Below, in pieces: positions 1 to 62,528 of a DNA stretch of 64,000 bases. The DNA is from Syntrophobacterales bacterium (GTDB taxonomy: Bacteria > Desulfobacterota > Desulfobaccia > Desulfobaccales > 0-14-0-80-60-11), in the NCBI GenBank assembly GCA_020060385.1, contig JAGVAH010000028.1, positions 1-64,000 on the forward strand, in the 5' to 3' direction. A model generated the notes under the pieces. It was given only the letters and a program-made list of their open reading frames with translations, ran no database searches and was not told the origin of the DNA. A program made the translations under genes and the position numbers. Positions within the stretch are counted from its first letter, which is position 1. Each line of letters opens with the position of its first letter.

Positions 1-147
1 ATCGGCCCGGCGATAATCAAAGAACTTGCTCCCTGGAACGATTTACGTGATACCTACTCCCCCCAATTGAGGAAAGAATTTTCGGCAAGTGCTATAAGAG
101 AACTATGGATCCTGACAGGTTACCGGATATGTCAAGCTCTGTTTTGA
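1..147 (+). CDS. Possible 3' end of a hypothetical gene entering from the left
   Basis: Frame 1 is open from the first base to a TGA at 145-147, giving 48 residues that end in an aromatic and hydrophobic stretch (LWILTGYRICQALF). It would converge on and overlap the end of the minus-strand cyclase gene by 16 bases. I recognise no family. The codons include several ATA, which is unlike the GC-rich neighbours, so this may be a chance open frame. Upstream sequence is needed to tell. Confidence 0.22.
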   Translation: MGPAIIKELAPWNDLRDTYSPQLRKEFSASAIRELWILTGYRICQALF

Positions 148-3098
148 TGAAGTGGACTCACGGCCGGCAACGGTTTTTCCTGCCTGGCGGCAGACTGGCT
201 GGCCGCGGCCACCACCACCCGGTTGCGGCCTGCGGCCTTGGCTTGATACAAGGCGTCATCCGCAGCCCGGAGCAGCTCCTCCCCCTTGGACCCATTATTG
301 GGAAACATGGCCACCCCAATGGATACAGTGGTCCCCTCCAGCAAATGGCTCTGATGGAGCACTTGCAGTTTTGACACCTTGTCCCTGATTTCCTCTGCCC
401 GGGCCCGGACCACTTCCAGGGGGGCTTCCGGCATAATCATGATGAATTCTTCCCCTCCATAGCGGCAGGACACATCTTCCTGGCGCACATGGGCTTGCAA
501 GAACTTCCCCAGGGCCTCCAACAGACGATCGCCGGCTTCATGGCCCAGGGTGTCATTGTAGCGTTTGAAGTGATCCAGATCCAGCATGATGACTCCCAGG
601 GGGGTTCCCTTGCGTTGGCTCCGGTGGATCTCCCGGACCAGGGTTTCTTCCAGGTAGCGACGATTAAACAAACCGGTTAAAGGATCGTGCATCACCTGAT
701 GGCGCAGGGTTTCCCGGAGTCTGATATTGGACAAGGAGAGAGAAATATGGTCGGCCACGGGAACTGCCAGACGCTGGAGCTGGGTGGTGATCGTGGCAGC
801 TGCTCCGGCGGGGGCCTGAAAATGCAACAAGCCCAAAACTTCCCCATGGGCTATCAGGGGCAGACAGGCATAAAAGCCTGTCTGCGGGACCGGAAGATGG
901 TGGCAGGGTAGCTCTTCATCGTGCTTCCCGCAAGAATGGACGCGTCCCTGTCGGAGCCCCCAGCAATCCTGGATAGTAAAAACTTGTTCTCCAGTCAGCG
1001 TGTCCCCCCAGGCGGCGACGGCCTCCAGCAGCTTACTGGTGGGATCCAGGATAAATAAGCCCATGGCCTTGGCCGCGAATAGTTTGCGCATAAATTTGCC
1101 AATGATGGGATAAGCTTCTTCAATCGACTGGCAGGACTGGAGTGATTCCGCCATGTTGTTGATCAGGGTGACTTCCCGGTTGTGTTGATCAGATTCACGC
1201 ACCAAGGCCTGGAGTTTTTCATTGATCAACTGCATTTCCGCCATGTTCTTCTTCGTCTGGGTCAGGTCCCTGGCCACGGTGACACTGCCCACAATTTGGT
1301 CAGCGGCGTTCCGTAACAACCGGATGGACAGGCTGCAGGGGATGATCATGCCATCTTTGCGTTTCATGTGGACTTCGTAGTTTCTGACATAACCATCCAG
1401 GTGCAGCCTCAGCAGCAGTCGTTGGCGTTCACTCTGATCCGCATAAAGATCAGCCGCAGGTTTTCCCAGCAGTTCATTGATGGTGAATCCATAGATTTCT
1501 TCTGCGGCCTTATTCCATTTTTGGAAGTTCCCTTGGGCGTCGACGATGCCGATGCCGTCCGCCGAGTTGGCAAAGATATTCTCCAGGTACTCATAGGCTC
1601 TTTGGAGTTTTTTCTCGATCTGCTTCTGCTCGGTAATGTCCATCATGACGCCCTGCAGATATAATGGCCGCCCCTCCGGATCACGCACTAGCATGGTTTC
1701 AGCCAGGAAGAAGAAGAGGGCGCCGGAGGCCGAGAACATCCGAAATTCCGAGGCCCTGGGGTTCCCGGTGGCTTGCACCTGGTCCAATACCCCCAACGCA
1801 TTTTCCACGTCGTCGGGGTGGATCTGGTTCTTCCAAATATCAGGATGGGCTTGATAATCAGCAGATGAGACCCCCAGGAGGGTTTCCACCTGGGGACTGA
1901 CATAAATGATGGTCCTGGCCTCGTCCAAGGCGATTATATAGGTAATGGCGGGCATCTGTTCCACCAGCGTCCGGTACTTGGCCTCTGATTCCTTAAGCCT
2001 TGCTTGGTGCAGTTCCAGGCCCGCGGCCATGGCGTCAAAAGCCCCGGCCAGTTGGCCTAACTCTCCGGTCTCGTGAGCCAGGCCGGAGCGGACCTCGAAG
2101 TTGCCGGCCGCGAGTTCCTGGGCGGTGTGCACCAGGGCATTGGTTCGCTTCATGATGAAGGCCTGTCCCAATATCAGGGCCATTACCAGAGCCAGAGCCG
2201 CGGTCACCCCTAAAGATATCAAGTTCCGGGTCATGACCCGGTTGGCGTGGGCAAAAACCGTCTTCATGGGCACGCCGGCGTAAACAAAGAGATCCTGGGT
2301 CCTGGCCCCCAGGGGAGTGAAGGCAAAGAGGCAAGGGATTCCCTCGAAGTCTGCGGCTTCAGTTACCCCCTCCTCCTTCGCCAGGACGGTTTTGACAATC
2401 TCCGCCTCCGGCATGCGCTTGCCCACCCATTGCTCCCCCTGGGGCTGCCGCACCAGAATGGTGCCCTCCCGGTCGATGACGCCGAGTATCGAACCCGCCG
2501 GCATTTGGGTCTTGGCCAGCATGGCACTGAGATAATCGAGGATCACGGACGCGGAGACCACTCCCATCACCTCCCCCTTTTCCAGAATCGGGTAAGCGAA
2601 GTGCAGGGAGGGTTTGCCTGTGGCTCGGCTGATGGCGAATATGCCGATGGAGAATTCCTTGGTTTGCAGGACCCGTTCGAAATAACTTTGGCCCGCGGAG
2701 GTCCGTTTGTAGTCGGGTAGCGGCCGGGCGCTGGCGTACACTTTCCCCTGCCGGTCCGCCGCGGCGATATTGCCTAATATCTTCTGTTTCTCCAGTATCT
2801 TGGCAAAAATGGCATTACAGGCCGCGCTATTCTGCTGGCGCACCGCGGGCAGTTCCGCCAGGCTGAGGAGCATGTGCCGCATTCCCTCCACCACCTGCTC
2901 CTGGTATACCGAGGCGTGCATGACCAGATCCAGGACATTCTTTTTGGCCTCAGCCATGGCCGCGCGCCGGTGTTCCAGACTGGAGTAGAGAATCAAGGCG
3001 AGGGCTGGCAGGACTGCCAGAAAGACCAACAGGATCAACCGGGACCTTAAGGTAGTGAAGAAACGGCGCACTAATTTTACCGTGGTCAGCCCTGGCAA
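132..3098 (-). CDS. Membrane sensor diguanylate cyclase (Cache-HAMP-PAS-PAS-GAF-GGDEF)
   Basis: This 988-residue protein should make cyclic di-GMP from two GTP at the inner membrane. Domains in order are: a transmembrane helix near residues 18-38, a periplasmic dCache-like sensor to about 300, a second helix near 303-325, HAMP, two PAS domains, a GAF domain with the DCW...GR...C pattern, and a C-terminal GGDEF domain. The active loop reads GGEEF. It is preceded at the correct distance by RQED, matching the RxxD inhibitory site, so product inhibition is likely. The start used is TTG with a weak ribosome-binding site, so the N-terminus is uncertain. It lies last in a run of same-strand signalling genes. 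A c-di-GMP riboswitch at 59,527 is one possible reader of its product. Confidence 0.9.
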   Translation of the reverse strand: MPGLTTVKLVRRFFTTLRSRLILLVFLAVLPALALILYSSLEHRRAAMAEAKKNVLDLVMHASVYQEQVVEGMRHMLLSLAELPAVRQQNSAACNAIFAKILEKQKILGNIAAADRQGKVYASARPLPDYKRTSAGQSYFERVLQTKEFSIGIFAISRATGKPSLHFAYPILEKGEVMGVVSASVILDYLSAMLAKTQMPAGSILGVIDREGTILVRQPQGEQWVGKRMPEAEIVKTVLAKEEGVTEAADFEGIPCLFAFTPLGARTQDLFVYAGVPMKTVFAHANRVMTRNLISLGVTAALALVMALILGQAFIMKRTNALVHTAQELAAGNFEVRSGLAHETGELGQLAGAFDAMAAGLELHQARLKESEAKYRTLVEQMPAITYIIALDEARTIIYVSPQVETLLGVSSADYQAHPDIWKNQIHPDDVENALGVLDQVQATGNPRASEFRMFSASGALFFFLAETMLVRDPEGRPLYLQGVMMDITEQKQIEKKLQRAYEYLENIFANSADGIGIVDAQGNFQKWNKAAEEIYGFTINELLGKPAADLYADQSERQRLLLRLHLDGYVRNYEVHMKRKDGMIIPCSLSIRLLRNAADQIVGSVTVARDLTQTKKNMAEMQLINEKLQALVRESDQHNREVTLINNMAESLQSCQSIEEAYPIIGKFMRKLFAAKAMGLFILDPTSKLLEAVAAWGDTLTGEQVFTIQDCWGLRQGRVHSCGKHDEELPCHHLPVPQTGFYACLPLIAHGEVLGLLHFQAPAGAAATITTQLQRLAVPVADHISLSLSNIRLRETLRHQVMHDPLTGLFNRRYLEETLVREIHRSQRKGTPLGVIMLDLDHFKRYNDTLGHEAGDRLLEALGKFLQAHVRQEDVSCRYGGEEFIMIMPEAPLEVVRARAEEIRDKVSKLQVLHQSHLLEGTTVSIGVAMFPNNGSKGEELLRAADDALYQAKAAGRNRVVVAAASQSAARQEKPLPAVSPLHQNRA

Positions 3099-58104: not shown

Positions 58105-59100
58105 ATGAGATTGAGCCTGAAGCCACAGCTTTGGGCCTGGGCTTTGGCCCTTCTGGTTTTGGCTTCGCCCCTGGCGGCCAAGACGGAAGAAGGCCTGGAC
58201 CTCACGGCCCGTTCCTTCGTGATCATGGACGCCAATACCGGCGATATTCTGCTGTCCTATAACCCCCAGCTCTTTTGGCCCCCTGCCAGCACCCTCAAGG
58301 TGATGACCGCCATGTATGTGGTGGAACACCTGAAAATGGATGATAAGGTCACGGTGAGCCCCCACGCGGCTGCGGCCCCCCCCTCCAAGATCGGCATCAA
58401 ACCCGGGGAAGTCTACACCGTGAAAGAGCTGCTCTATGCCTTGCTGCTCAATTCCGCCAATGACGCGGCCCGGGCCCTGGCCGAGCGGGTGAGCGGCAGC
58501 GAGGAGGCCTTTGCCCGGGATCTTACCCGGCAGGTGCGGCAGTGGGGAGCCTATCGCACCACCCTGGCCACCGCCAACGGCTTGCCCGCGGACAACCAGT
58601 ACTCCACGGCCCAGGACCTGGCTTTGATGCTGAAAAAGGCCATGGAGAACCCGGAATTGGCGAAGATCATGGCTACCAAGTATTACCACATCCAGGGTGA
58701 GCGGGAGCTGCGCAATCACAACCGTTTCTTGTTTACCACCCCCCTGGCGGTGGGGGGTAAGACCGGCTTTACCCGGGCCTCCAGGCACACCTACGTGGGC
58801 ATGTTTCGCAAGGATGACCGGGCCATCATCATCTCCCTGATGGGGAGCAAGCAGAAATGGGCGGATTTGCGCCCTCTGATTGAGAAGGGCTTTGAGTTGG
58901 AGGGCGCTCCCATCGCCAAGCTGCCCCCTCAGGAGGAAAAACTCCGGTTCCCCAAGAGACATACCGGTAAATATGCGGCGACCAGCGGCAAATCCAAACT
59001 GCGGCGGGCCCCCAAGGTGGCCATGGGTTCCGCCACCGCCTTGCCCGGAAAAAAAAGAAGCCGCCTCAATAAAAAGAAATCCAAAGGCCACGAGCATTAA
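58105..59100 (+). CDS. D-alanyl-D-alanine carboxypeptidase (PBP5/DacA family)
   Basis: This is a 331-residue serine carboxypeptidase trimming peptidoglycan side chains. A signal peptide (LWAWALALLVLASPLAAK) is followed by the S11 catalytic set: Ser-x-x-Lys in PPASTLKVMTAMYV, Ser-x-Asn in LLNSANDAARALAE, and Lys-Thr-Gly in VGGKTGFTRAS. The C-terminus lacks the usual PBP5 beta domain and amphipathic anchor, ending instead in a very basic tail (KKRSRLNKKKSKGHEH), so it may bind the wall or membrane electrostatically. Confidence 0.94.
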   Translation: MRLSLKPQLWAWALALLVLASPLAAKTEEGLDLTARSFVIMDANTGDILLSYNPQLFWPPASTLKVMTAMYVVEHLKMDDKVTVSPHAAAAPPSKIGIKPGEVYTVKELLYALLLNSANDAARALAERVSGSEEAFARDLTRQVRQWGAYRTTLATANGLPADNQYSTAQDLALMLKKAMENPELAKIMATKYYHIQGERELRNHNRFLFTTPLAVGGKTGFTRASRHTYVGMFRKDDRAIIISLMGSKQKWADLRPLIEKGFELEGAPIAKLPPQEEKLRFPKRHTGKYAATSGKSKLRRAPKVAMGSATALPGKKRSRLNKKKSKGHEH

Positions 59101-59114
59101 CTTTTCCGGTTAGA

Positions 59115-59381
59115 GTGCCCCTGTTAATGAAGGGTCTATTCAATAAAATAAAGAACTTGCCTACCCGCCGACGTTTTGTGGTCTCCACCATTCGCAAAGG
59201 CGACAACGCCTTTGAGACCGCGGTTTTTGAGGCCAATTTTTTCTATCTGCCCCGGAGCTGGTCCCGGCCGGTACTGGTGGTGCCTGCCACTACGAAGGAT
59301 GAGGCTTGGGAGACCCATTACCTGCTGACGGACAGGCTGACCAAGGAATATCCCCTCCGTATTTTTCAGGAATATTCTTGA
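59115..59381 (+). CDS. Small hypothetical protein
   Basis: This 88-residue protein begins KGLFNKIKNLPTRRRFVVSTIRKGDNAFETAVFEANFFYLP and continues with a TTKDEAWETHYLLTDRLTKEYPLRIFQEYS end. It is basic at the N-terminus and soluble. Neither the GTG at 59115 nor the ATG at 59127 has a good ribosome-binding site. It lies 14 bases after the carboxypeptidase stop and may be co-transcribed. No family is recognised. Confidence 0.5.
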   Translation: MPLLMKGLFNKIKNLPTRRRFVVSTIRKGDNAFETAVFEANFFYLPRSWSRPVLVVPATTKDEAWETHYLLTDRLTKEYPLRIFQEYS

Positions 59382-59526
59382 TTTTTTTCTTGGGGGAAGA
59401 GGTTCTCTATCCACCTCTGTGAGGCCTCCCATGCCCACCAGTTGCGGCTTTTACGAGAAACGCGCCAGATTAAAGATTTAAGAAAGGAATACCGATATAA
59501 GATCAAAATAGCTTGGTTTTTTACTA

Positions 59527-59620
59527 GGCATCGAAAGGGCAAACTACTCCGAAAGGGTAGGACGCAAAGTCTCCGACCTACAGCCCCCGGGCCATGGTAG
59601 CGGGATTGCCGAAATGCAGA
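59527..59620 (+). ncRNA. Cyclic di-GMP-I riboswitch (GEMM-I)
   Basis: The segment follows the GEMM-I aptamer in order. It has AGGGCAAAC, a hairpin with a GAAA tetraloop (CTACTCCGAAAGGGTAG), then GACGCAAAGTCTCCGACCTA, a second hairpin, and the TAGCGGGATTGCCGAA closing segment. The tetraloop, the GACGCAAAG joint and the GCGGG...CCGA strand match the known ligand-binding core. A terminator hairpin follows 17 bases later, ahead of tadE/tadG-like genes, so c-di-GMP level should set their transcription. Whether ligand turns the genes on or off cannot be read safely. Confidence 0.93.
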
Positions 59621-59636
59621 GGCGATCTATGTTGCT

Positions 59637-59670
59637 AGGGGCTCGACTTTGGTCGGCCCCTTTCATTTTT
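59637..59670 (+). terminator. Riboswitch-linked intrinsic terminator
   Basis: AGGGGC-T-CGAC (59637-59647) pairs with GTCG-GCCCCT (59652-59661) over a TTTG loop, followed by TTCATTTTT. Placed directly after the c-di-GMP aptamer, it is the likely expression platform. Confidence 0.82.
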
Positions 59671-59772
59671 CTCGGATATGGCGCCACTTGGGATAACAAA
59701 GCATAGACTCCCCGGCAGCAGGGCGGATGCCCTCCCGGGAAGTTTATCTCCTGCAGGCGGATGAGGCTGATC

Positions 59773-60273
59773 ATGCCGGTTAAGAAGAGGTCATTGAAAC
59801 CAAGGCGGGAACGGGGCAGCGTCGTCATGGAGATGGCTCTTACCTTGCCCGTCTTGCTGATGATGGTGGCCGGAACCATCGATATCGGCCTCCTTTTTTG
59901 GGAAAAGGAGGTCCTCACCAACGCCTCCCGGGAGGGCGCCCGGGCAGGGGCCAGGGCCACGATTAGCGGCAAGCCGGAACAAACGACGGTGGAAGGGGTC
60001 AGGTCCATAGTCCAGGCTTACCTGGATAATTACAACTTGCGGGATGATTCAGGCGCCCCCATCACCTTGGTGAATGGCACGAATTTTACCTATGAATGGG
60101 ACTTTGGCCATAATCCTCCCATATTGTCGGTGGAACTCAAGAATATACCGGTAAAGATGCTGATGCTCCCCAATATCGACCGGCTGTTTGGGGGGACATT
60201 CAGTAATGTCGTTTATTTAAACGCCAAGACCACCATGGCGCCGCAGTGGTTAAGCACTTATCCCCCGTCTTAA
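59773..60273 (+). CDS. TadE-like pilus assembly protein
   Basis: This protein of about 166 residues starts at ATG 59773 with GAGG at 6-base spacing (ATG 59761 is the alternative). A basic leader (KKRSLKPRRERG) precedes SVVMEMALTLPVLLMMVAGTIDIGLLFWEKEVLTNASREGARAGARA, the TadE domain: Glu at the fifth position of the pseudopilin-like helix and the NASREGAR signature. The rest is periplasmic. Tad pseudopilins help assemble Flp-type adhesive pili. No Tad ATPase, secretin or flp gene is in the window. Confidence 0.88.
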   Translation: MPVKKRSLKPRRERGSVVMEMALTLPVLLMMVAGTIDIGLLFWEKEVLTNASREGARAGARATISGKPEQTTVEGVRSIVQAYLDNYNLRDDSGAPITLVNGTNFTYEWDFGHNPPILSVELKNIPVKMLMLPNIDRLFGGTFSNVVYLNAKTTMAPQWLSTYPPS

Positions 60274-60336
60274 GGTTTATGCATTTCCCCCATTACTGGC
60301 CCAAGCCTGGGGGCAGAAAAAAAGGAGGACATGTTG

Positions 60337-61722
60337 ATGAAAAGGTTTAGGTTTTTTAACGGTCCCCCAGGGGAACGGGGCTCCATTACCCCGATCGTCG
60401 CCTTGGGCCTGCTGGCCTTTGCTGGGTTTATGGCTCTGTCCATCGACCTGGGCCAGCTTTACATGGTGAAGAACGAGGTGCAAAACGTGGCGGATGCCGC
60501 GGCCCTGGCGGCCGCCAAGAAGCTGATCCAGGACAAAAACAGCGACGGAGTGGCGGAAGTCTACTGCGCGGAGGCCATCCAGACCGCCATTGACTATGCC
60601 AAAGAAAATTGCTCTTTCGGAGTCACGTCACCCATCACCATCACCGCCGCGGATGTCACCATCGGCAAATGGAATCTGGTCACCAAGCAGTTCGATGCCA
60701 CCGGCTGCACCGACGGCACCACCACCCCCATCCAGGTTAATGCCGTGCGGGTGAACGTCAACCGGGGCGGAGGGGAAGGGGGCAACGACAAGGTTTCCAC
60801 CTTTTTCGGCAGTGTGCTGGGCGTGGGCGAGAAGGATAAGGATGAAGAGGGAAAGCTGATAGAAAGCAGCCCCAACAAACTGAGCGTCGCCGCTTCCTCG
60901 GTGGCCATGCTGGGGCTGGCGGGCACCAGCGCCCTGGATCTCCCCTTCGCGGTGTCCACCAATTGGCCCGCGGGAGGAACGCCCCTGACCTATAACGGCA
61001 TCCAGCGCATCCTGGAGAAGTTCGCTCCCACCCCGGCCTATGCCAGTGATCCCCAAACGTACACCTGGAAGGATCTGGGAGGCAGCAACCTGGACACCAC
61101 CCGGGCCACCTTTGTCATGCCCCTATACTCGGAGCGCACCAGCCTGACCAAACTGCAGCAGTACATTAAGGGGCCGAACACTTCTGGAGGACTGCAGTAC
61201 CCCCAGGTGACGGTGGGTCAGAAGGTCTATCCCATCAGCGAATATCTCTGGGGGTCTAATATCAAAAACAATTTCACCTACTGGAAAACCCGGTTCAACG
61301 CCGTGGATAAATCCAAGACGAACGGCAAGTGGCGGGTGACTGCGGCGGTCTATAGCACTACCCCGGTAACCTCGGCCCTGCCCCAGAATTCCTGGTTTAA
61401 GCTGGCCTCCAGGCTCTTGCCCGGAGTCTCCCAGGCCCATGCCTGCATGTCTTACACCGTGCCCGCGGTCTATGTCCAGGGTTTCATCGAATTGGATGTG
61501 ACGAATATTGTGTGTCCTTCCAACTGCACCACCGGCGATCAATCATATTCCTCCAGCTGCCGGAACCAATGCTATGCCACCGTTGAGGTGCCGTTGAATC
61601 AGAACACCGTCAGCACGGATGCGGGGAGCAACCCCATTCCTTATCAAAAGGACTACAAGGACATGAATAGCTCGGCCAACAAGGTGGGAGTCTTTGCCTC
61701 GGTGCCGCGGCTGGTAAAATGA
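60337..61722 (+). CDS. TadG-like pilus assembly / surface protein
   Basis: This protein of about 461 residues starts at ATG 60337, 8 bases after GGAGG; ATG 60331 is too close to it. The N-terminus GERGSITPIVALGLLAFAGFMALSIDLGQLYMVKNEVQNVADAAALAAAKKL is the Tad (TadG) signature: one membrane helix followed by the DAAALAAA helix. The periplasmic part has beta-rich and Cys-containing segments (CPSNCTTGDQSYSSSCRNQC) and no von Willebrand domain that I can see. It follows tadE by 63 bases under the same c-di-GMP riboswitch. Confidence 0.87.
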   Translation: MKRFRFFNGPPGERGSITPIVALGLLAFAGFMALSIDLGQLYMVKNEVQNVADAAALAAAKKLIQDKNSDGVAEVYCAEAIQTAIDYAKENCSFGVTSPITITAADVTIGKWNLVTKQFDATGCTDGTTTPIQVNAVRVNVNRGGGEGGNDKVSTFFGSVLGVGEKDKDEEGKLIESSPNKLSVAASSVAMLGLAGTSALDLPFAVSTNWPAGGTPLTYNGIQRILEKFAPTPAYASDPQTYTWKDLGGSNLDTTRATFVMPLYSERTSLTKLQQYIKGPNTSGGLQYPQVTVGQKVYPISEYLWGSNIKNNFTYWKTRFNAVDKSKTNGKWRVTAAVYSTTPVTSALPQNSWFKLASRLLPGVSQAHACMSYTVPAVYVQGFIELDVTNIVCPSNCTTGDQSYSSSCRNQCYATVEVPLNQNTVSTDAGSNPIPYQKDYKDMNSSANKVGVFASVPRLVK

Positions 61723-61808: not shown

Positions 61809-61848
61809 GGGGGAGACAGCCTTGGGGCTGCCTCCCCCGGGTTTTTTT
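61809..61848 (+). terminator. Rho-independent terminator after tadG-like gene
   Basis: GGGGGAGACAGCC (61809-61821) pairs with GGCTGCCTCCCCC (61826-61838) with one mismatch, followed by GGG and seven T. It also separates the convergent MgtC-like gene. Confidence 0.9.
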
Positions 61849-61850
61849 CT

Positions 61851-62528
61851 TTAACTGACGTCCACCCGTTTGATGCCCTCCAAGGTAAAGACTTCCTGCA
61901 CGGCCTGGCGCTGGGGGTGTACGGCCCGCTGCCTGAGGAGGAAGGTCATGGTCACTTCCTCCTTTTCCCGGTCCTTGCCCATACCGGAATTGACCACCTT
62001 GAAGCCGTGGAGGTCAATGATCTCCTGGACGCGTTCCACCTGCCCGGGCAGGTCTTGGGAAACCACGACCAACTCCTGATACCAATCCCGGCGCAATCTT
62101 TTCTCCACCGGCTTCAACCCTACAAGGGCAAGCACGGTAATAGCCGCCACCGCGCCGCCATAGAAATAGAAGCCGGCGCCCACGGTCAGGCCCACGGCGC
62201 AGACCACCCAGACGCAGGCCGCGGTGGTCAAACCCCGGATGGTGTCTTTACTGCGGATGATCACCCCGGCCCCCAGGAAGCCGATGCCGGTGATGGCCTG
62301 GGCGGCGATGCGCCCCGGATCCACCTGCAGGTTGATCCCTGGAACCCCGCCCTGATATTTGTGGAAAAGGTACTCGGAGACCAGCATGATCAAGGCGGAG
62401 CCCAAGGAGAGGAGGAGATAGGTGCGCACCCCCGCAGGCCGGCCGTGCATTTCCCTCTCCAGGCCCACGGCCCCTCCCAGGAAGGACGCCAGGAGCAGCC
62501 GAAAGATGACTTCCAGGTCAGTGATCAT
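61851..62528 (-). CDS. MgtC/SapB-family membrane protein
   Basis: This is a 225-residue inner-membrane protein. The N-terminal MgtC domain has LLLASFLGGAVGLEREMHGRPAGVRTYLLLSLGSALIMLVSEY, QAITGIGFLGAGVIIR and IRGLTTAACVWVVCAVGLTVGAGFYF, about five helices. The C-terminal 75 residues form an ACT-like cytoplasmic domain. Relatives affect growth at low magnesium and inhibit ATP synthase in pathogens; the role in environmental bacteria is unclear. Its start overlaps the lpxI stop (ATGA). Confidence 0.93.
   Translation of the reverse strand: MITDLEVIFRLLLASFLGGAVGLEREMHGRPAGVRTYLLLSLGSALIMLVSEYLFHKYQGGVPGINLQVDPGRIAAQAITGIGFLGAGVIIRSKDTIRGLTTAACVWVVCAVGLTVGAGFYFYGGAVAAITVLALVGLKPVEKRLRRDWYQELVVVSQDLPGQVERVQEIIDLHGFKVVNSGMGKDREKEEVTMTFLLRQRAVHPQRQAVQEVFTLEGIKRVDVS

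Follow-up and report, generated by a model that had tools for sequence, protein, structure and literature searches.

The window analyzed here is the whole 64,000-nucleotide stretch from the start of a contig of a Syntrophobacterales bacterium, and near its 3' end a cyclic di-GMP riboswitch leader stands in front of two genes related to Tad pilus assembly. The first gene (59761 to 60273, forward strand) encodes a pseudopilin-like TadE protein (PF07811, E value of 1.4e-14, 54.3 bits against a cutoff of 22.9) and has a second possible start at 59773 behind a GAGG. The second (60331 to 61722, forward strand) encodes a protein of 463 amino acids with matches to PF13400 (E value of 1.5e-13, 51.2 bits against 22.3) and to Tad_C, PF09977 (E value of 5.8e-7, 30.9 bits against 22.1). 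The initial annotation had called the two genes TadE- and TadG-like, and both names agree with the Pfam results, but the second product should not be taken for a full TadG: no Pfam match to a vWA domain was found in it, and "TadG-like" is therefore a fair description. A terminator-like hairpin with a T-run, found by the terminator scan at 61821 to 61851 (forward strand), closes the two-gene tadE-tad unit at about 61850, and the gene 3' of this hairpin, of the MgtC type, lies on the other strand. Upstream of the leader, a carboxypeptidase gene and a small open reading frame (58105 to 59381) run in the same direction as tadE.

At the far end of the window (132 to 3098, reverse strand) we found the membrane diguanylate cyclase with an inhibitory site that had also been reported there, a dCache-HAMP-PAS-PAS-GAF-GGDEF protein with an RQED I-site five residues before its GGEEF motif. 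Its gene is 56 kb from the riboswitch, to which nothing connects it, and a role in the switch was dropped on account of this distance.

A cmscan search of the whole window gave a single Rfam match above threshold, to the c-di-GMP-I model RF01051 at 59528 to 59613 on the forward strand. The match covers the full model (1 to 87) with 73.8 bits and an E value of 1.3e-12, the gathering score being 35 bits, and all 22 pairs of the consensus helices are standard. Four more base pairs close P1 (GCAU/AUGC, 59528 to 59531 with 59614 to 59617), so that cmscan and pairing together place the aptamer at 59528 to 59617. The near-canonical GEMM-I aptamer of the initial annotation was thus borne out by the Infernal search, as was the intrinsic terminator described behind it, and the coordinates given for them were right almost to the base.

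The terminator (59637 to 59670, forward strand) was recognized by folding. It consists of the hairpin AGGGGCUCGAC-UUU-GGUCGGCCCCU at 59637 to 59661, followed by UUUCAUUUUU, with the U-tract at 59661 to 59670. The segment from 59628 to 59680 folds with -19.5 kcal/mol (z score of -3.6), and none of 200 shuffled sequences was equally stable. A simple pattern scan for terminators in the window did not pick up this hairpin, probably owing to its bulged stem. Aptamer and terminator hairpin do not overlap, and a fold of the leader constrained to contain the aptamer retains the terminator.

Folding also predicts an antiterminator. Its 5' strand is the 23-nt 3' strand of the aptamer (CGGGCCAUGGUAGCGGGAUUGCC, 59588 to 59610, forward strand), which folding and the comparison of leaders both point to, and its 3' strand is the sequence at 59621 to 59645 (forward strand), whose last six bases (59640 to 59645) are part of the 5' arm of the terminator. 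The predicted hairpin has -30.5 kcal/mol and, compared with hairpins made from shuffled downstream sequence, a z score of -4.9; across 10 leaders these z scores run from -1.4 to -4.9, the natural hairpin being the more stable. With pairing partners taken from predicted folds, the topology is kept in 12 of 12 related leaders, these 10 and two from metagenome-assembled genomes (MAGs) of Desulfobacca. Pair 6 (C-G to U-A), pair 11 (U-A to C-G), pair 21 (G-C to A-U), and, more weakly, pair 8 have changed on both sides. Such compensatory changes are few because the aptamer leaves the antiterminator 5' strand almost no room to vary.

In the minimum-energy fold of the free transcript, the terminator is absent. 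Used as an equilibrium proxy, its predicted probability rises from 0.00 for the full-length RNA left free to 1.00 with the aptamer sequestered. When transcription was followed stepwise, the alternative fold gained on the aptamer from about position 59627 and was 22 kcal/mol ahead by 59648, a figure that excludes ligand and tertiary contacts. Since the alternative fold overtakes the aptamer during transcription, the ligand would have to bind early, as described for the Cd1 riboswitch of Clostridioides difficile. In four other leaders (the two copies in genome G013, that in G016, and partly that in G018), the equilibrium calculation yields the terminator with or without ligand, so the prediction there hangs on folding kinetics.

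We compared the leader with those of its Desulfobacca-like family, in which 21 of 22 genomes have c-di-GMP-I copies. The 81 aptamer sites that were compared, together with their surroundings, fall into two groups by sequence. Type A, with 44 sites, has the form ..AAAGCCAAACC..ACGGAAAGCC and usually a GUGA- or GCGA-like P2 loop; in type B, of the form ..AAAGGCAAAC..GACGCAAAGTC, this loop is usually GAAA. The 37 sites counted as type B, including that of the window, were assigned by rule, and two of them resemble type A by eye. The aptamer's own 3' strand forms the 5' arm of the terminator at 39 of the 44 type A sites versus 6 of the 37 type B sites.

Two published systems illustrate what these layouts may mean. 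In the Cd1 OFF switch, the aptamer and the terminator can coexist and an antiterminator competes with them, while in the ON switch of Geobacter pilM the aptamer and the terminator are mutually exclusive (PMC9262584). The type A layout in the family is that of pilM. The window leader has the OFF-type layout, with a terminator that does not overlap the aptamer and an antiterminator made of the aptamer 3' strand and the terminator 5' arm; a terminator of the pilM type, built from the aptamer 3' strand, was not found in it. Because this topology is that published for Cd1, c-di-GMP should cause termination, and we infer from the folding models that the ligand would turn the tad genes off. The opposite direction, an ON switch in which c-di-GMP frees the post-aptamer strand, the terminator is somehow weakened, and pili are made at high c-di-GMP, would suit the biological expectation for biofilm genes. 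It would also be in keeping with the other riboswitch type of the same genomes, which is clearly of the ON type (39 of 44 terminators from the aptamer 3' strand), and the alternative hairpin of some relatives has an inner part that is compatible with the terminator. Against it stand the lack of overlap between aptamer and terminator in the window, where we saw no downstream-only partner for the terminator 5' arm; the predicted probability of 1.00 with which the downstream RNA goes into the terminator once the aptamer is sequestered; and the scarcity of ON-type terminators among sites of the window's own aptamer type (6 of 37). We therefore consider an ON switch unlikely here.

Upstream of the aptamer, a pattern match revealed a FliA/sigma28-like promoter, TTAAAG-N16-CCGATA (59470 to 59497, forward strand), with the -35 element TTAAAG at 59470 to 59475 and the -10 element CCGATA at 59492 to 59497. 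Transcription would start near 59504. In Escherichia coli, FliA recognizes TAAAGTTT-N11-GCCGATAA, and the mapped FliA consensus of Bdellovibrio is TTAAG-N16-CCGATA (PMC3627812). The window site fits TTAAG/TAAAG-N15/16-(G)CCGATA, but an A replaces the G before CCGATA. A FliA-like motif was found upstream of 29 of the 37 type B aptamers versus none of the 44 of type A (Fisher test, 5e-15), although many of these 37 sites are orthologous and do not count as separate events; the background rate in shuffled upstream DNA is about 1%. The motif mostly ends 19 to 32 nt 5' of the aptamer. The type A sites have instead a sigma70-like -35 box, TTGAC, upstream of 34 of 44, compared with 1 of 37 type B sites.

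FliA is encoded in the genome (TIGR02479, 267 bits, cutoff of 189.6), one flagellin gene has TTAAAGTTTTAGTGCCAAGTGCCGATA upstream, and a motA gene is preceded by a similar FliA-like site. A strict motif, TTAAAG-N14-16-GCCGATA, had 76 matches in the family versus 9 for the reversed control, and 7 versus 0 in the genome itself, and in relatives it also lies 5' of flagellin and motA genes. The window site falls outside this motif because its -10 element reads ACCGATA. A looser pattern was not enriched genome-wide over the reversed control (24 versus 27), so we rely on position, the contrast between the aptamer types, and the stricter motif. The strict motif further precedes 12 other tadE genes of the family, five of which have no riboswitch, so the linkage of FliA and tad genes is independent of the RNA, and tad genes may have been under FliA before the riboswitch was added. 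These five lie at G006 C25:1390, G007 C7:1313, G009 C8:82778, G010 C37:25846, and G012 C169:14598.

We infer that FliA uses the window promoter in vivo. If CCGATA were not a FliA promoter, a real riboswitch could still be transcribed by sigma70 or by read-through from the open reading frames at 58105 to 59381, and the ACCGATA form of the -10 element, the lack of genome-wide enrichment of the loose pattern, and the absence of a clear terminator between the codirectional carboxypeptidase gene and small open reading frame and the leader are in line with this. The position of the motif 19 to 32 nt before most type B aptamers and its absence from type A argue against this, as do the strong enrichment of the strict form and its place upstream of flagellin and motA genes, and a sigma70 scan returned no site in the leader. 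Transcription without FliA is thus quite improbable.

The ligand was judged from the specificity position. The window aptamer has a G at column 11 of the RF01051 model, which we take to be position 20 of the Vibrio cholerae aptamer Vc2, where we presume a G to denote the c-di-GMP type. An A at the equivalent position is the mark of cGAMP-selective GEMM-Ib aptamers. The GAAA P2 loop and GACGCAAAG of the window aptamer also match the c-di-GMP consensus, and the guanine suggests that c-di-GMP is its ligand. That it is a GEMM-Ib sensor of 3',3'-cGAMP, as are many Geobacter GEMM-I riboswitches including those 5' of pilus genes (PMC6456294), is very improbable given this base, a G in 79 of the 81 family sites, and the agreement of loop and GACGCAAAG with the c-di-GMP consensus. 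The two family sites with an A, G003 C123 and G020 C112, may sense cGAMP. In the window's own genome, two other loci (G000 C16:19395, L036; C99:7689, L037), like their relatives, have GEMM-I riboswitches of the ON type, with TTGAC promoters, upstream of genes for secreted-looking proteins; these aptamers are GEMM-Ib-like in sequence except for the G at the specificity position.

We next considered how firmly the leader is tied to tad genes. The genome (4.15 Mb in 175 contigs) has six RF01051 matches and exactly two TadE matches, and both tadE genes lie behind c-di-GMP-I riboswitches. The second is part of a riboswitch-flp-tadE-cpaB operon on contig C77, after which CpaE- and CpaF-like open reading frames were recognized by eye; a search for further copies in front of other tad genes, proposed with the initial annotation, was thus rewarded within the same genome. 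Of the 12 tadE genes in the genus, 11 follow a riboswitch at a distance of no more than 1 kb, and the remaining one is near the end of its contig; for the other genera of the family the count is 6 of 42. The arrangement of riboswitch, terminator, and tad genes is kept in the genus, and two Desulfobacca MAGs (L228 and L235) repeat the full order of FliA motif, riboswitch, terminator, and tadE. Outside the family, where loci were found by an aptamer DNA pattern, the aptamers of this sequence type in Betaproteobacteria (Gallionella/Nitrosomonadales) had no FliA motif and no tad genes beside them, and none of the few loci of other Desulfobacterota that the pattern could parse had the FliA motif. 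From these loci, the link of FliA, riboswitch, and tad genes looks lineage-specific.

One relative (G013 C26:28116-28439, L056) carries a tandem pair of type B riboswitches before tadE-tad, both complete and each with its own antiterminator and terminator. In the leader of the main flp operon, of the C77 type, a clear difference between free and bound RNA was not found for the terminator. The main flp operon leaders (L035 on C77 and relatives) have a conserved CUUUGGUG-NN-CUCGGUG element about 27 to 80 nt after the aptamer, which is complementary to the conserved 5' start of the aptamer, CACCGAG(AAAG), and CUCGGUG was found in 13 of the 16 leaders whose aptamer starts with CACCGA. It is a possible switching element. 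About 95 to 105 nt after the aptamer, L035 and its relatives also have AGGAGGUGA, a strong Shine-Dalgarno-like sequence to which no obvious start codon belongs; in several genera it lies about 90 nt 5' of the flp start codon.

Type B riboswitches were also seen before other kinds of genes. One (G011 C19:36177-36261, L044) has the same OFF topology and precedes a gene for a membrane PAS-GGDEF-like protein, possibly a negative feedback on c-di-GMP synthesis, and another (G016 C82:4176-4261, L088), with CCGATA upstream, precedes a gene for a FliD_C-domain protein. The riboswitches of the family may be split into two packages, type A with sigma70-like promoters, ON terminators, and secreted proteins, and type B with FliA promoters, an OFF topology wherever the terminator is resolved, and Tad pilus genes plus some motility and signaling genes; on this division as a whole our judgment is evenly balanced. 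If it is true, a rise in c-di-GMP would turn on a sessile set and silence the pilus set of the motile phase, and the flagellar regulon would include Tad pili.

The aptamer, the terminator, the conserved antiterminator, the promoter motif, the presence of FliA, and the conserved linkage to tad genes are all computed features of these genomes. They are probably best explained by a terminating, OFF-type c-di-GMP-I riboswitch that leads the two-gene operon tadE-tad and has a FliA (sigma28) promoter. FliA-RNA polymerase would start the transcript near 59504 in motile cells. At low c-di-GMP, the sequence after the aptamer would capture the aptamer 3' strand in a long hairpin, which would sequester the terminator 5' arm and let RNA polymerase read through into tadE-tad. 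At high c-di-GMP, the aptamer would be locked closed, the terminator would form, and tadE-tad would be off. The Tad parts would then serve the swimming, surface-searching stage, their production ending when a cell becomes committed to a surface, and the gene products are presumably parts of a motile-phase or surface-sensing pilus. Surface pili would, on this view, be controlled by two keys.

Generally, c-di-GMP is viewed as promoting pili and attachment. The RNA anatomy of the window predicts the reverse for these tad genes, namely, their repression by c-di-GMP while they are driven by a sigma factor of swimming cells. The initial annotation had given no direction of control and had overlooked both the antiterminator and the FliA-like promoter; with these two elements, the reading shifts from c-di-GMP promoting pili to c-di-GMP probably stopping motile-phase expression. 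If this is true, Tad parts would be equipment of a motile, surface-searching cell, and it would become understandable how a single second messenger can increase some surface proteins and decrease others by way of one class of aptamer.

Neither the aptamer class nor the OFF mechanism is new, and GEMM-I riboswitches before pilus genes are likewise known (PMC9262584, PMC6456294). In the open-access literature, we found no earlier report of GEMM/c-di-GMP riboswitches with tadE, Flp, or Tad pili, nor of FliA with Tad pili or of a FliA promoter combined with an OFF topology and Tad genes. The closest mechanistic likeness is to Cd1 of C. difficile, in which aptamer and terminator coexist and the antiterminator is formed from the aptamer 3' strand and downstream sequence (PMC9262584); the window leader, a predicted switch, differs in having a FliA-like promoter and tadE-tad genes. 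The pilM GEMM-Ib riboswitch of Geobacter metallireducens is similar in that a GEMM-I fold precedes pilus-related genes in a former deltaproteobacterium (PMC9262584), and other Geobacter GEMM-I riboswitches precede pilus, cytochrome, and polysaccharide genes (PMC9262584, PMC6456294). However, pilM and others of these are cGAMP sensors, whereas the specificity base of the window aptamer is that of the c-di-GMP type, and the terminator of pilM, an ON switch, incorporates an aptamer strand, unlike the OFF topology of the window. In Bdellovibrio, FliA controls many surface genes beyond flagella, and a c-di-GMP riboswitch RNA (merRNA) is present in the motile phase (PMC3627812). The merRNA has no conserved downstream gene, and no FliA promoter is listed for it (PMC3627812), whereas the riboswitch of the window leads tad genes.
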